NCBI RefSeq assembly: GCF_030068605.1
Contig: NZ_JASJOU010000018.1
Span: 124,001-188,000, forward strand
DNA from: Xanthocytophaga agilis
GTDB lineage: Bacteria > Bacteroidota > Bacteroidia > Cytophagales > 172606-1
Direction of reading: 5' to 3'
DNA: 64,000 nt
The notes under the pieces were generated by a model. The model made no database searches. It had not been told where the DNA came from and saw nothing but the letters and a program-made list of their open reading frames with translations. The position numbers and the translations under genes are program-made. Shown piece after piece: positions 2,431 through 60,646 of this stretch. Position 1 is the first letter of the stretch. Each line of letters starts with the position of its first letter.

Positions 2431-5259
2431 ATGGAAGGTTATATGCAGTCTGAAGAAAAGGCCGCAAAGCCAGCGTCTTTAGAGGAAGCCACACAGCTTA
2501 TTGCACATTTACAAAGAAAGCAGCATGAATTACAAAGTCAAATTGAGCAACATCAATTCGGGTTGGCAAATGTAGCAGCTATGGTTGAATACGAAAATAC
2601 AAATATCGGAAGTGAAGTAGATAAAAGCGGACAGAATAGGCCATTCGGTCTGGAGTTTTTTCAATCCATCATAGATAGTTCACTGGATGTCATTCAGGTA
2701 TTGGAAGCTGTAAGAGATCTCGAAGGTAAAATTGTGGACTTCCGATGGATATTAAATAATAACAAAGCGAAAGCCCAGAATGGTGAAGTAATAGGAAAAA
2801 GCCTGCTTACACAAAATCCTGGCGTTGTAACTACGGGAATCTTTGATAAAATGGTGCAGGTAATGGAAACTGGTCAACCCTATGAACAGGAAATATACTA
2901 TCCCTATGAGCAGTTTAATAGTTGGTTCTATCAGGCACTTGTTCGACAAGGTGATGGTATATTGATGACTACACGGGATATTACTGTGCAGAAAAAGGCG
3001 GAACAGGAAATGCTACAGTTAAAAGATACCCTCGCTCAAAAAGCCACTGACAAATATCTTTCACTCTTCAATTCCATTGATGAAGGGTTTTGCATCATTG
3101 AGGTGCTGTTTGACACAAACCAAGTTCCGTTTGACTGGAGGTTTCTTGAGGTTAACCCAGCCTTCGAAAAAAATAATGGTCTACACAATGCTGCTGGTAA
3201 AACAATTCTGGAATTAACACCAGACATTGAACAAAAATGGTTTCATATTTATGGACGCGTTGCTCAGACAGGTGAACCTTTGCGCTTTGAGGAAAGTTCT
3301 GTTGCACTTGGCCGCTGGTTTAACCTCTATGCATTTCGAGTTGGAGATCCACAAGAAAATCATGTTGCTGTTATTTTCACCGATATCACCAGTCAGAAAA
3401 AAGCCGAGGGTGCCTTGCGAAAAAGTGAAGAGCAATTTCGCCTGTTTGTAACTGCCAGTTCAGATATAGTTTACAAAATAAGTGCAGACTGGAAACAAAT
3501 GCATTTTCTAACTGGTAAAAATACTCTCTCTAATACAGATGTCGCTACTACTAACTGGATAGAGACGTATATTCATCCTGATGATCAACCTTACATACAG
3601 ACAGTTATTACGCAGGCTATTGATACTAAAAGCATGTTTGAACTGGAACACAGAGTAATTCTGGCTAATGGCAAAGTAGGCTGGACTTTCTCCAGAGCCA
3701 TTCCTATGCTGGATGAAGAAGGTAAGATAAGTGAGTGGCTAGGAACTACCAGTGATATCACCATTCGCAAGCAGGCTGAAGAACAACTAAAACACTTTAC
3801 TAGTCAACTGGAACAGGAGGTAGAGAAACGTACGAAAGAACTAAGAGAAAGTAAAAATCTGTTGCAATCCGTATTTGATACCAATCTGATGGGAATGTCC
3901 TTAATGAATGCAATACGCAATGAAAATGGAGCAATCGAAGACTTTCAGATTATGCTGGTCAATCAAAAAACCATGAATGAAACGGGGAGAACTGATTTAG
4001 TCGGTAGTCGATTTACCGAACAATATCCCGGTATAAAACAGATAGGTCTCTTCGATCTGATGCTTCGGGTAATGGAAACCGGATATGCAGAAAGGATGGA
4101 ATATTATTATCCATACGAAGGCTTTAACAAATGGTATTCCTGCCAGTTTGTAAAGCTGGATGATGGACTCGTTGCTACGAATTTGGATATTACCAGTCGT
4201 AAACTAGCAGAACTAGAGAAGGTTAAACAATATCAGATTTTACATCAGGCCGAAGAGGTAGCTCGTATGGGTAGCTGGGAATATGATGCTGCCAATGAAA
4301 AGCTTATCTGGTCAGAGGGTATGTATCGTTTGTTTGGGTTACCCGTTGGTAGTGCGGTATGCCCCGAAACCTATATGAACTTTGTCTGGGAAGAAGATCG
4401 TTTCGTAGCTGAAAGGCTCATTCATAATCTGCGTCGTCAACCAAAGTCGCTGGAAGAGACATTGCGGATTGTGGTTAACAACAAACCTATTACGTTAAAA
4501 ATTAAAGCAGTCTTACTTCAAAATACAGACGAACAGCCTATAAAGATGTTGGGAGTAGATATAGACATCAGTGAATTAAAACAGTTGGAAGACGAAAACA
4601 TCAAAATACGAATAGAACAACAGAACCAACTTCTTTTAGCCATTCTAGAGGCCCAGGAAGAAGAACGCAGACGCATCTCAGAATCTATTCACAATGGAGT
4701 AGGCCAGATTCTATATGCCACCAAGCTCAATCTGAACCAACTTGAACTATATCTCCAATCTGAGGATAAACCGATGATTCAAAAGTCCCTTCAAGCTACA
4801 GAATCCATGCTTGCCGATGCTATCGCAGAAACCCGCAGAGCTTCTCATGAACTAGTTCCTATTCTACTCAAAGAATTTGGATTGGAAAAGGCCATTGGAG
4901 ACTTTTGCAGACGTTTTTCGAAGAGTGGTATAAAACTGTCCTGTCATTCATTACCCGAAAGATTACCTACTCATCTGGAAACAGCTATTTATCGCATTTC
5001 TCAAGAGTTAGTCAACAATATTGTGAAACATTCCGGTGCAACCCGTGCCCGTATAGAAATTACCCGTGATGACAAGTATATCTATGTGGAAGGACAGGAC
5101 AATGGTACAGGCATGACAATGAGCTTGTCTGGCAAAGGGATTGGACTAAAAACCATTCAGGATAGAGTACAACTGCTGGAAGGTAAACTGGAAATAGAAT
5201 CTACTCCCGAAAAAGGCACATTGATTACCATTATCTTACCACTGCGCAAAATAGTATAA
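2431..5259 (+). CDS. Multi-PAS sensor histidine kinase (HisKA_3 type)
   Basis: This is a 942-residue soluble sensor kinase. I see an N-terminal coiled region (1-60) and five PAS-like domains at about 80-195, 205-330, 335-455, 470-600 and 605-725. A NarL-type dimerisation domain carries the phospho-accepting His754 in ISESIHNG, and a HATPase domain runs from about 845 to the end (DNGTGM, GKGIGL). There are no transmembrane segments, so it should sense cytoplasmic signals. HisKA_3 kinases normally phosphorylate LuxR/NarL-type regulators, but none is adjacent; the nearest downstream regulator is a lone receiver at 5804, beyond a convergent cold-shock gene. PAS domains 1 and 4 share an unusual YYPYE...W motif (see findings). 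Confidence 0.93.
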   Translation: MEGYMQSEEKAAKPASLEEATQLIAHLQRKQHELQSQIEQHQFGLANVAAMVEYENTNIGSEVDKSGQNRPFGLEFFQSIIDSSLDVIQVLEAVRDLEGKIVDFRWILNNNKAKAQNGEVIGKSLLTQNPGVVTTGIFDKMVQVMETGQPYEQEIYYPYEQFNSWFYQALVRQGDGILMTTRDITVQKKAEQEMLQLKDTLAQKATDKYLSLFNSIDEGFCIIEVLFDTNQVPFDWRFLEVNPAFEKNNGLHNAAGKTILELTPDIEQKWFHIYGRVAQTGEPLRFEESSVALGRWFNLYAFRVGDPQENHVAVIFTDITSQKKAEGALRKSEEQFRLFVTASSDIVYKISADWKQMHFLTGKNTLSNTDVATTNWIETYIHPDDQPYIQTVITQAIDTKSMFELEHRVILANGKVGWTFSRAIPMLDEEGKISEWLGTTSDITIRKQAEEQLKHFTSQLEQEVEKRTKELRESKNLLQSVFDTNLMGMSLMNAIRNENGAIEDFQIMLVNQKTMNETGRTDLVGSRFTEQYPGIKQIGLFDLMLRVMETGYAERMEYYYPYEGFNKWYSCQFVKLDDGLVATNLDITSRKLAELEKVKQYQILHQAEEVARMGSWEYDAANEKLIWSEGMYRLFGLPVGSAVCPETYMNFVWEEDRFVAERLIHNLRRQPKSLEETLRIVVNNKPITLKIKAVLLQNTDEQPIKMLGVDIDISELKQLEDENIKIRIEQQNQLLLAILEAQEEERRRISESIHNGVGQILYATKLNLNQLELYLQSEDKPMIQKSLQATESMLADAIAETRRASHELVPILLKEFGLEKAIGDFCRRFSKSGIKLSCHSLPERLPTHLETAIYRISQELVNNIVKHSGATRARIEITRDDKYIYVEGQDNGTGMTMSLSGKGIGLKTIQDRVQLLEGKLEIESTPEKGTLITIILPLRKIV

Positions 5260-5803: not shown

Positions 5804-6226
5804 ATGTCGTCTGAAAATCCTTTTTTTATTCTGATAGCAGAAGATGATCCTGATGATCAGGATATTTTGCAGATACTGTTAGACACTCACTTTCCTCAAT
5901 GGCATTATCACATTGTCAACAATGGGCAGCTTTTGATTGACTATCTCACAAACAAAACTCCACGGCAATTTCCTGTCTCTCTGGTATTGATTGATATAAA
6001 CATGCCTGTCAAAGATGGAATAGAAACACTAAAGTCACTCCGTACTATGCTGGAGTACAAGTATCTGCCAGTTGTAGCATTTTCTACCTCAGGTAATAAA
6101 TGGATGGAAGATATCTTTATGAAGGCCGGAGGAAATGCTTATTTACAGAAACCGGATAAAATGGAACAAATGGTGTATATATTAAGCCAATTGCCTGAAC
6201 TAATCCAAAAAACAGGTAACAAATAA
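5804..6226 (+). CDS. Single-domain response regulator receiver
   Basis: This is a 140-residue receiver with no output domain. The acidic pair EDDPDD (residues 14-19), the phospho-acceptor Asp in LVLIDINMP (about residue 65), the switch Ser/Thr in AFSTSG and the Lys in LQKPDK are all present, so it should be phosphorylatable. The NxPxxDG-like loop (MPVKDGIE) resembles the Rcp1/CheY-like family found with PAS kinases. It may act as a phosphate relay or sink for the upstream multi-PAS kinase, but the intervening cold-shock gene on the other strand means they are not one operon. Confidence 0.92.
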   Translation: MSSENPFFILIAEDDPDDQDILQILLDTHFPQWHYHIVNNGQLLIDYLTNKTPRQFPVSLVLIDINMPVKDGIETLKSLRTMLEYKYLPVVAFSTSGNKWMEDIFMKAGGNAYLQKPDKMEQMVYILSQLPELIQKTGNK

Positions 6227-6522
6227 TTCTCAGCTTTTCCAAAAACCACGATAGCTATCTATGGCGTCAGTCTGACTTGTGCATTCGGCTAACCAGGATG
6301 ATTTGTTTTCTTTATGTGTCAAACTCGACTTGCATTTTTCTCGTCAAACCAGAAAATGTGGATTTAGATTCTCCAATACTCATAACCTCTATCTATACAC
6401 ACAGGCGATAAAATATCAGCTATAAGCTGAGTTCTGCTCTTTTGTGAAAATTCAGGATACTATATCTGTTAGCATTTTTTTAACGATAAAATAATAGTTA
6501 CATAAAATTAAGATAACATTCC

Positions 6523-37014: not shown

Positions 37015-37654
37015 AGGGTTTGAAATACAGATAGAAAAAAGTTTTGGTATGGTTAACTGAATGTTGCCACTGAAATTGGCGTTTCCGAAAAGTTGTCTTG
37101 TGACAGAAGAGTATATAAACTGTAGTTGGAATCTTGAGTTAAAATCAATTGTACAAAGTATCATTTATACAATTGATTGTTTCAGTATCCCTAAAAATGG
37201 CAGAATAATAAGGCGTTCTGCAGGATTGTTTTTAAATCATTTCATTTGTTATACTTTCTATTTTATACGGAACTGATCTCAAAGATAGAGCAATGATATT
37301 TTTGAAGGTAATTTTGTCTGTTACCAAAAAATTAAATTTATCTGTCTGATATTATTAAAAGAGGACAAAACCCAAGTGGTATGTAAATGTATTTTTTGTA
37401 TTTTCTTTTATCCTCCCAAACTTTTGAGAAAAAAGATGAATACAGCGAAAAAAATAAAGGAAGATTACTTCAATTGTGGAAGGGCATAATTGTGTTCAGG
37501 ATTCATACCATTAATTATAATCCCGATGTAGTTGAGAAAGGATGGCTGGAAAAATGTTCAGCAAGCAAAGTGATCATGTTTCGAATTACTCTGGAAGTTA
37601 CCAGAACTCTATTTACTTTACTTGCCTGTTTATATATGAGATTCAGGAAGACAT
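37015..37654. other. Intergenic region upstream of the sigma factor
   Basis: This AT-rich stretch should contain the sigma-factor promoter. An 89-codon plus-strand frame at 37387-37656 has a basic, low-quality sequence and no recognisable domain; I do not call it a gene. I see no repeat or hairpin in it. Confidence 0.4.
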
Positions 37655-37944: not shown

Positions 37945-37974
37945 TAAATACGCAATTTGAAAAATAAGTATTTA
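37945..37974 (+). repeat. 30-bp near-palindrome, copy 2 of 9
   Basis: TAAATAC and GTATTTA flank a 16-bp interior (core ATTTGAAAAA). Preceding bases are AGAGCG. It is 56 bp upstream of coiled-coil gene A. Confidence 0.8.
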
Positions 37975-38245
37975 TACATTAACGACCTGATTATCAATCA
38001 AAATTACGCAATTGCTTGTACTATACCTGTCACAATAAACGTCTGAGAGGTAGTATACCTTATTTTAAAGGAACTCAACAAGCAGATTTTGTAGCAAGCT
38101 GCGTTAATGCCTATAGATCAGTCGCAACGTGGTAAAGACTATGGCCGAAAAATTGGCAATGGCGTAATACAGGCTTTTTTAGTTCTTCAAGAACTTTAAT
38201 AGTATCTGAACCCTCTAAAAATAATTGTAAACAACCTCTAAAAGA

Positions 38246-38639
38246 TGACCGGAGTGCAGGACACTGAGTAAAAATGACCGGAACCCCAGTCACTCAGAAG
38301 AGATATCCGAAGTATGGTCACTTTTCTAATTAAAGACAAAGTGATCGGGCAACTATTTAGCAAGGCAAGTGACCATACTTCGGATCATTTTGCAAAATGA
38401 CCGGAACTCTGTTCACTTTTTATTTTGACCGAAGTTCCAGTCATTTTTTGTTTTAACCGGAATACCAGTCGCTTTTCAGAAATATTCGATCTCTGTTCAC
38501 TTTTGCCTTTGACCGGAAGTATGGTCACTTTAGAGAATGACTGAAACTCTGTTCAAACACGACAACTATTCGAATACCAGTCAAATTATCGGCTGACCAT
38601 AGTTCCGGTCACCAACCTGTATGACCATACTTCTGGTCA
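38246..38639 (+). repeat. Array of thirteen 18-bp imperfect palindromes, 28-bp period
   Basis: Units start at 38246, 38275, 38303, then 38370, 38398, 38426, 38454, 38482, 38510, 38538, 38566, 38594 and 38622. The last ten are spaced exactly 28 bp apart (18-bp unit plus 10-bp spacer). The best unit, at 38510, is TGACCGGAAGTATGGTCA; others keep TGACC or CCGAA and GTCA or GTTCA. Units at 38370, 38594 and 38622 are reversed. Spacers often start CTTTT. Units 3 and 4 face each other across a 49-bp core containing GGGCAACTATTTAGCAAGGC, giving a perfect 17-18-bp inverted repeat. The surrounding 979-bp gap has no gene. Confidence 0.88.
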
Positions 38640-38868
38640 GCAGACATACAAAACACTAAAGAAAACTCAGCTATACTATAGATCGTCAGGAGAAGATAAT
38701 ATGAAAGACAATATCTATAAAAGAAAAAAAGAAGCAGCCAAAGGCTTACTTCTTTTCAATCATAATCTATAGACAATAAGCAAGATGGTTACAAGGAGTT
38801 TACTATAACTATAAGGCACTATTTATATACAAGTCACACACAAAGTACACTATTGCTCTTTTGAATCA

Positions 38869-39210: not shown

Positions 39211-39240
39211 TAAATACGCATTTTGTAAAATAAGTATTTA
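39211..39240 (+). repeat. 30-bp near-palindrome, copy 3 of 9
   Basis: TAAATAC and GTATTTA flank GCA, core TTTTGTAAAA and TAA. Right flank ACGCAA. It lies between the pseudo-receiver gene and coiled-coil gene B, 121 bp upstream of B. Confidence 0.85.
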
Positions 39241-60352: not shown

Positions 60353-60470
60353 ACTATCGAAGACTGAGCAATTGGGCAACTATTCAGCAAGGCAAGCGAA
60401 CAGAAACCGAATCACTTTACAAAATGACTGGAAGTATGTTTACTTTTGAGAGTGATCGGTACTCCGGTCA
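60353..60470 (+). repeat. Short second copy of the 28-bp-period palindrome array
   Basis: Units start at 60353, 60397, 60425 and 60453; the last three are exactly 28 bp apart. The clearest is TGATCGGTACTCCGGTCA. Between the first two lies GGGCAACTATTCAGCAAGGC, nearly identical to the core of the 38.3-kb array (GGGCAACTATTTAGCAAGGC) but with 23 bp fewer around it. It lies in the 694-bp gap 60174-60867. Confidence 0.8.
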
Positions 60471-60646
60471 AATAATCCTATGTCTAGGAATAGACGAGGT
60501 TTTCAGAATACGTTGCTGTAATTTTACAGCTTTGAGTGTAAGTATAGGCTTATACCAATGGCTGTCTATTTTGTAGTCCGTTCTTCTACAATTCCACAAA
60601 AATTTCCTCACTCTACACAATTTCATATATTCTACTCCTATCAGTA

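Follow-up and report, generated by a model that had tools for sequence, protein, structure and literature searches.

A phased array of imperfect palindromes in Xanthocytophaga agilis is probably a gene-less copy of operator arrays that precede small phage-type xre genes

In lambdoid phages, the dimeric helix-turn-helix (HTH) proteins CI and Cro act at three operators of 17 bp, which are imperfect palindromes adjoining the proteins' own gene. The iterons of lambda O-type origins are likewise imperfect palindromes, of about 18 bp, and lie beside replication genes; phage origins cloned on plasmids compete for the initiator (PER). IS21 and Tn7-like elements carry multiple repeated sites at their ends, and intergenic repeats of the REP, BIME and MITE types are dispersed, palindromic and located at the 3′ ends of genes. 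Dispersed operator sites are already known inside phage genomes. The stoperators of cluster A mycobacteriophages such as L5 and TipsytheTRex serve one phage-type HTH repressor, which has many such sites in short intergenic spaces and is proposed to stop elongation there, not initiation. Each is a single asymmetric site of 13 bp within the phage genome and points in the direction of transcription; the repressor is a monomeric two-domain protein (PMC9283540). In the open-access literature searched, we found no description of whole tandem operator arrays dispersed on a bacterial chromosome and present at the same sites in two species.

The array considered here lies at positions 38246–38639 of a 64,000-nucleotide stretch of X. 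agilis DNA, the whole of which is called the window. Twelve of its 18-bp units are clear; another, the first, is weak, and a further degenerate one lies within an interval previously taken as a 49-bp core. The features of the window that bear on the argument are as follows; a strand is given where one applies, and the half-site classes are defined further below.

38246–38263: unit 1, weak (TGACCGGAGTGCAGGACA), 29 bp ahead of unit 2
38275–38320: units 2 and 3 (TGACCGGAACCCCAGTCA, ATATCCGAAGTATGGTCA), step 28 bp
38321–38369: 49-bp head interval, made up of 21 bp, a degenerate unit (38342–38359) and 10 bp
38370–38639: ten units in exact 28-bp register, starting at 38370, 38398, 38426, 38454, 38482, 38510, 38538, 38566, 38594 and 38622
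38640–38683, + strand: tail resembling the leader between the last unit and the xre start codon of xre-linked copies (..CAGCTATACTATAG versus ..CAGTTATACTATG), with no xre gene after it
37543–37615: second array, class A, degenerate, three units at steps of 28 and 27 bp (E 2.5e-5)
60398–60471: third array, class A, three units at 28-bp steps (E 9.1e-15)

The preliminary description had counted thirteen units, ten of them in a 28-bp register that never slipped. The register is exact, with starts at 38370 + 28n (n = 0–9) and the last unit at 38622–38639. The thirteenth unit, the first one at 38246, is weak: it is absent from the list of 12 units obtained at a score of 7 and present only in the list of 13 obtained at a score of 6. 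The core exists as an interval, but the real steps across it are 39 and 28 bp, because the degenerate unit sits inside it. Palindromic ends had been ascribed to every unit, and this does not hold for the units at 38303, 38482 and 38566, which begin with ATAT or CTAT. The motif CTTTT, said often to open the 10-bp spacers, opens three of the nine spacers of the regular block. More generally, many class A units either join two differing half-sites or start with ATAT or CTAT, and are untidier than a simple repressor operator.

Both the periodicity and the palindromic character of the array stand out from shuffled sequence. Between 38200 and 38700, six units at the 28-bp register reach a similarity of 12.2/18, compared with 7.08 ± 0.30 in Markov shuffles, none of 300 of which attain it. 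Among periods of 20–40, 28 scores best, and the palindrome-only score lies above all 400 shuffles. The near-identical repeats and unique spacers of 20 bp or more that define a CRISPR are not what is found here, where variable 18-bp units alternate with 10-bp spacers; the findings are consistent with the earlier suggestion of a multi-site platform, presumably for a dimeric protein, rather than a CRISPR. A structured RNA was considered and rejected, because many units have no internal complementarity; the window had no Rfam match at the gathering score, and our model of the array, R1, is of sequence only. We also rejected a protein-coding repeat, since 28 is not divisible by three and both strands of the units contain TGA.

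The window array is flanked by genes for an ECF sigma factor, a FecR protein and a TonB-type receptor on its one side and by a gene for a response-regulator protein on its other side; small conserved ORFs lie in between. Two other repeated sequences occur in this neighborhood. A 30-bp near-palindrome (TAAATACGCA.TTTG.AAAATAAGTATTTA) is found at 37945–37974 and at 39211–39240, upstream of two short ORFs (68 and 73 aa) that look related; a similar sequence also occurs near positions 1506–1544 of locus L061, where the aligned stretch of X. flavus ends. This gives the impression of a small regulon-like motif. Immediately upstream of the array, positions 38046–38241 hold a separate dispersed intergenic repeat that several other places in X. 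flavus match.

A search of the host and its relatives for the 18-bp unit at 28-bp spacing, as had been suggested at the outset, returned dozens of copies, many at sites common to two species. With three or fewer mismatches allowed, the best unit occurs 84 times in the host genome, compared with 12 times for a reversed control. R1, a model of three consecutive units built from 62 aligned triples, has at least 166 matches in the host and at least 159 in X. flavus YF14B1; the search scored 150 candidates per genome, so that array numbers are lower bounds. By hand count, the matches listed group into about 47 and 43 separate loci, respectively. R1 had no match in the third Xanthocytophaga genome (G002, 72% complete) or in three genomes of the same family (G003, G004 and G006). 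Among the species genomes of GTDB 220, which possibly do not include the host's own records, the three-unit pattern was found in 12 stretches: eight in X. flavus and four single stretches in unrelated taxa, the latter probably due to chance.

The 53 host loci and 40 X. flavus loci read, all chosen because they contained matches, yielded 48 and 36 clusters of three or more units, respectively. Flanking sequence pairs 31 of the 36 X. flavus clusters with a host array, 26 of them by both flanks and five by one. Gene-less class A arrays make up 29 of these 31 pairs, and one pair (L009/L048) is possibly paralogous. Judged by their flanks, class A arrays are old and have stayed in place in the two species. 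In X. flavus, the array that corresponds to the window array lies on contig C62; it has one 28-bp unit fewer and an additional 1-bp gap within it. It is also the closest array match to the window array (L071), followed by the xre-linked arrays L025 and L050. No clean empty site emerged from the two loci compared for this: for L021, X. flavus gave array matches alone, with the flanks unmatched, and for L029 the flanks are present in X. flavus around a far shorter array (about 112 bp versus 296). X. flavus L057 contains two class A arrays, at 3095–3460 and 6036–6401, with about 3 kb separating them. Another dispersed repeat, of about 130 bp, occurs near several arrays (L010, L014 and L036).

Whole 28-bp units are gained or lost between the two species. 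Over the 31 pairs, 28-bp gaps occur 11 times and 56-bp gaps three times within arrays, as against a single 28-bp gap in the flanks. Gaps of 1–10 bp number 33 in 7528 aligned columns within arrays, where the counts include several 28-bp gaps split by the aligner, compared with 196 in 16,751 columns in the flanks. Substitution rates were compared in 27 solo pairs, leaving out the two xre-linked pairs and those with fewer than four host units. Changes affect 283 of 3626 positions in units (7.8%) and 180 of 1348 in spacers (13.4%; Fisher p 7e-9). The unit rate is close to that of the flanks (1221 of 14,645, or 8.3%), which are partly coding. Pair by pair, units changed more slowly than spacers in 18 cases, faster in eight and equally in one (p 0.076); constraint is therefore not demonstrated for each array.

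Some class A copies are linked to genes. In five loci (L009, L016 and L025 in the host; L048 and L050 in X. flavus), the array lies directly upstream of a gene for an Xre/Cro-type protein of ∼78 aa that matches HTH_3 (E 3.7e-6) and phrog_8 (E 1.5e-12). Upstream, all five loci have a weakly excisionase-like gene (phrog_66, E 0.007) and an initiator-like gene, for which one of the two copies tried matched phrog_678 (E 3.3e-7) and phrog_186 (E 3.9e-6) and the other matched nothing; four of the five also have a phrog_35728 gene. An RHS gene upstream of L009 was considered and rejected, the ORFs there forming a replication-type module. On the right side, pairwise alignments of gene-bearing copies stop at, or close to, the point where xre ends. 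Decayed partial xre 3′ ends lie ∼2–4 kb past the intact gene at L087 (8021–8096) and downstream of xre at L088 and L086, as if cargo had inserted at the gene's 3′ end. Upstream of one gene-bearing array element, at L085 8324–12736, SIR2-like and TIR-like ORFs were noted by eye as a possible defence island.

The window array can be compared directly with these gene-bearing copies. It has the 18-bp units, the 28-bp steps and one 39- to 42-bp step, and its half-sites are those of class A, a class linked to an xre gene; no xre lies directly downstream. We call it a solo copy because the leader-like tail is present and xre is absent. Of 42 gene-less arrays tested, all from the first sets retrieved, three retain this kind of tail, namely the window array, its counterpart in X. 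flavus and a third array. No remnant of the linked genes was detected alongside solo arrays by tblastn at 1e-3 in 93 loci. Because the window copy and one other keep the leader-like tail up to the position of the xre start codon, gene-less copies probably derive from xre-linked arrays.

The relationship between array and gene extends beyond class A. Matches to the small xre family number 18 each in the host and X. flavus, including a few fragments; G002 has three weak matches and G003–G007 have none. The arrays are distributed much like this family across the genomes searched. In 18 of 25 regions upstream of xre, the periodicity score exceeded all 300 shuffles with a best period of 28; in a control of ∼60 window pieces, none beat all of its 60 shuffles and the best period was 28 in two. 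On the palindrome-only score, seven of the 25 regions beat all 400 shuffles, nine were reached by 1–10 of 400 and nine were indistinguishable. A recognizable upstream array is present at 20 of the 25 xre loci, 15 of them outside class A; the five loci with no clear array (L190, L192, L193, L201 and L202) were excluded from the class analysis and from the Mantel test below. The xre-linked arrays contain 6–13 imperfect 18-bp palindromes at 28-bp steps with one longer step, and in all 20 classed arrays this step measures 39–42 bp, or 65–67 bp if the unit inside it is too weak to score. The arrays fall into five classes by half-site, grouped by eye.

Class A: half-site TGACCaGAA, the window type; xre type MNLKDIGERIR..
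Class B: half-site TGCGGTGAA
Class C: half-site TGCGCtGAA
Class D: half-site TAACCGGAA
Class E: half-site TGAACaGTA

The distance between Xre proteins follows that between half-sites (Mantel r 0.89, 0 of 5000 permutations; 0.82 for the helix region alone), in a comparison where the site models derive from the same loci and the xre loci are not independent. Part of this co-variation could stem from common descent of adjoining DNA. Classes A and D have QGNLSSLEKG in common in the recognition region, and their half-sites are similar (TGACCaGAA and TAACCGGAA). Counting the xre-linked copies, class B sites match 26 and 24 times in the two species; four other genomes gave no match. Both species contain class B solo arrays: in all 18 loci fetched, which were taken because they matched, units stand at 28- or 29-bp steps; eight have a 66- to 67-bp interval, and none has an xre match within the piece read. 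For class E, each species has its own xre-linked copy and G002 has one 41-bp match, with no solo copies found. The class B and D elements L188 and L185 have phage-like components, with genes for a VapE/primase-helicase, an AAA_25 ATPase, a Holliday-junction-resolvase-like protein and an amidase (phrog_822, E 5.6e-43); capsid, terminase and integrase genes were not seen in the one contig read further out (ORFs by eye). An ORF resembling a Y1 (IS200/RAYT-like) transposase adjoins a class C xre-array locus at X. flavus L199 6206–6805; its match to Y1_Tnp (E 1.2e-4, 22.6 bits) falls just under the cut-off of 23.

Solo arrays occupy a distinctive place between genes. With gene models defined as plain ATG ORFs of at least 120 aa, host solo class A arrays of four or more units lie in 15 convergent, 22 tandem and two divergent gaps, compared with 21, 77 and 30 for the other gaps of the same loci (Fisher p 0.007 and 0.01). 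They lie a median of 70 bp from gene 3′ ends and 257 bp from 5′ ends, and one of 40 host arrays examined falls mostly within an ORF. The corresponding X. flavus counts are 10, 18 and 2 versus 18, 65 and 23 (p 0.072 and 0.066), the same trend in weaker form. Since solo arrays are rarely at promoters, classical repression of their neighbors is unlikely. Their location near gene 3′ ends would suit roadblocks, sinks and tolerated repeats alike.

Taken together, we consider it probable that the window array is a solo copy of the class A operator array of a cognate Xre protein, which would bind it and might form a filament there. In such a model, one Xre dimer would occupy each 18-bp unit. Because 28 bp corresponds to 2.67 helical turns, each dimer would be rotated by 240 degrees relative to the one before, which could allow cooperative assembly of a nucleoprotein helix. 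Ahead of xre, the array would serve autoregulation of that gene and would separate replication genes from lysis genes. At solo sites, the same filament could be a roadblock to transcription between genes or a repressor sink. Scattered platforms of this kind may let phage-like elements act on the host chromosome, or be titrated by it. A broader and frankly speculative proposal, which we hold to be unlikely, is that phage-like elements of this genus have planted multi-operator arrays of two or more sequence classes between the genes of the host, where Xre would assemble into helical nucleoprotein filaments and create a network of roadblocks or decoys. If this were true, an element-controlled, chromosome-wide network would couple host transcription to element repression and would give cross-immunity among elements of the same class. 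The five paired xre/array classes, built on one geometry, also provide a natural data set on the joint change of an HTH protein and its half-site.

Other explanations of the arrays differ in how far they account for these observations. Solo arrays could be functionless dispersed repeats that xre-array elements have shed or that a REP-type (Y1) transposase has mobilized; gene conversion would keep them homogeneous, and they would be tolerated at the 3′ ends of genes. Their dispersed, intergenic positions and rarity in divergent gaps would suit such an origin, as would the exact 28-bp gains and losses, which are what recombination between units is expected to produce, the lack of linked-gene remnants beside them in the loci searched and the retention of the leader in just three of 42. 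On the other side stand the slower change of units than of spacers, the lower number of 1- to 10-bp gaps within arrays compared with their flanks and the pairing of 31 of the 36 X. flavus arrays with host arrays, and we see this explanation as possible but somewhat doubtful. Its transposase version can draw on the weak Y1_Tnp match of the ORF beside the class C xre at L199; against it, that ORF has no full-length relative among the 148 loci compared, and a genome search with PF01797 had no match in either the host or X. flavus, although it missed the L199 ORF too, so that absence is not proven. The arrays might instead belong to a chromosomal nucleoid or segregation protein whose sites were borrowed by phage-like elements. 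A genome-wide distribution and sites common to two species would be natural for such a protein, but the half-site classes follow the xre classes and class B has its own solo set, which makes this very improbable. Nor does the array look like the free-standing cellular locus envisaged in the preliminary description; it is read here as a copy of one that precedes small phage-type xre genes.

That description had also offered an iteron-like locus, and of its branches the regulatory one fits better. For the origin branch, the array would be the iteron block of the linked replication module, and solo copies would compete for its initiator. In favor of this are the position of the array in the five gene-bearing class A loci, downstream of the weakly excisionase-like and initiator-like genes and, in four of them, a phrog_35728 gene, and a relative (L095) in which a 17-bp tandem array follows a module with a phrog_35728-type gene. 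Other relatives point elsewhere. Genes of the phrog_35728 type occur in 33 of 390 genomes of the order, and at 12 of 30 such loci a tandem repeat with a period of 21–35 bp lies upstream of the gene. All eight of these repeats that were inspected sit in an open frame at the initiator's place, a frame that is only putatively the initiator, and six are clearly palindromic. At L144, L146, L149, L150, L158, L163 and L166, palindromic repeats with a period of 22–23 or 33–35 bp lie within the frame upstream of the phrog_35728-type gene and differ in sequence from locus to locus. The gene-bearing copies have in-gene repeats of their own that are unlike the array, with a spacing of about 20–23 bp and more at X. 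flavus L087. Because of these repeats, the 28-bp array is unlikely to be the initiator's iterons; moreover, the fifteen arrays of the four other classes precede xre with different genes upstream (ORFs by eye). We therefore regard the origin branch as quite improbable. The window array, as a solo copy, has no initiator gene beside it. With the initiator-like and phrog_35728-type proteins as queries, tblastn gave no match in a plasmid collection, and a search of phages gave four weak matches (best E 0.04). As for the ends of a transposon such as IS21, raised earlier as one option, no istA/istB-like gene was seen among the window ORFs beside the arrays (by eye) or among eight proteins near the three window arrays searched against Pfam, nor was a transposase seen beside the window array (by eye). 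In gene-bearing copies, the array is internal, between two genes; the check for terminal repeats and target duplications covered these five copies and was made by eye. These observations make transposon ends extremely unlikely.

Read as a solo Xre operator array, the locus can be set against the systems described at the outset. Lambda O-type iterons resemble it as imperfect palindromes of ∼18 bp adjoining replication genes, but in relatives of the gene-bearing copies the repeats lie within the frame found at the initiator's place, whereas the array here precedes xre. Like REP, BIME and MITE repeats, the arrays are dispersed, palindromic and near gene 3′ ends; unlike them, they keep a 28-bp register and a conserved long step and are linked in some copies to a cognate regulatory gene, while a Y1-transposase-like ORF is found at one locus only (L199). 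The lambdoid CI/Cro operators share with the arrays the arrangement of imperfect palindromes beside an HTH gene, and Xre itself matches HTH_3, HTH_19 and phage repressor families. However, the arrays have 6–13 sites of 18 bp at 28-bp steps, with dozens of copies elsewhere. The mycobacteriophage stoperators are the closest working analogy for the solo arrays. They differ in that here the sites are near-palindromic, form tandem arrays on the host chromosome and fall into several sequence classes, and the protein is a single-domain Xre of ∼78 aa. The two systems would have in common many sites for each phage-type HTH repressor, and the placement of solo arrays near gene 3′ ends is compatible with this analogy.
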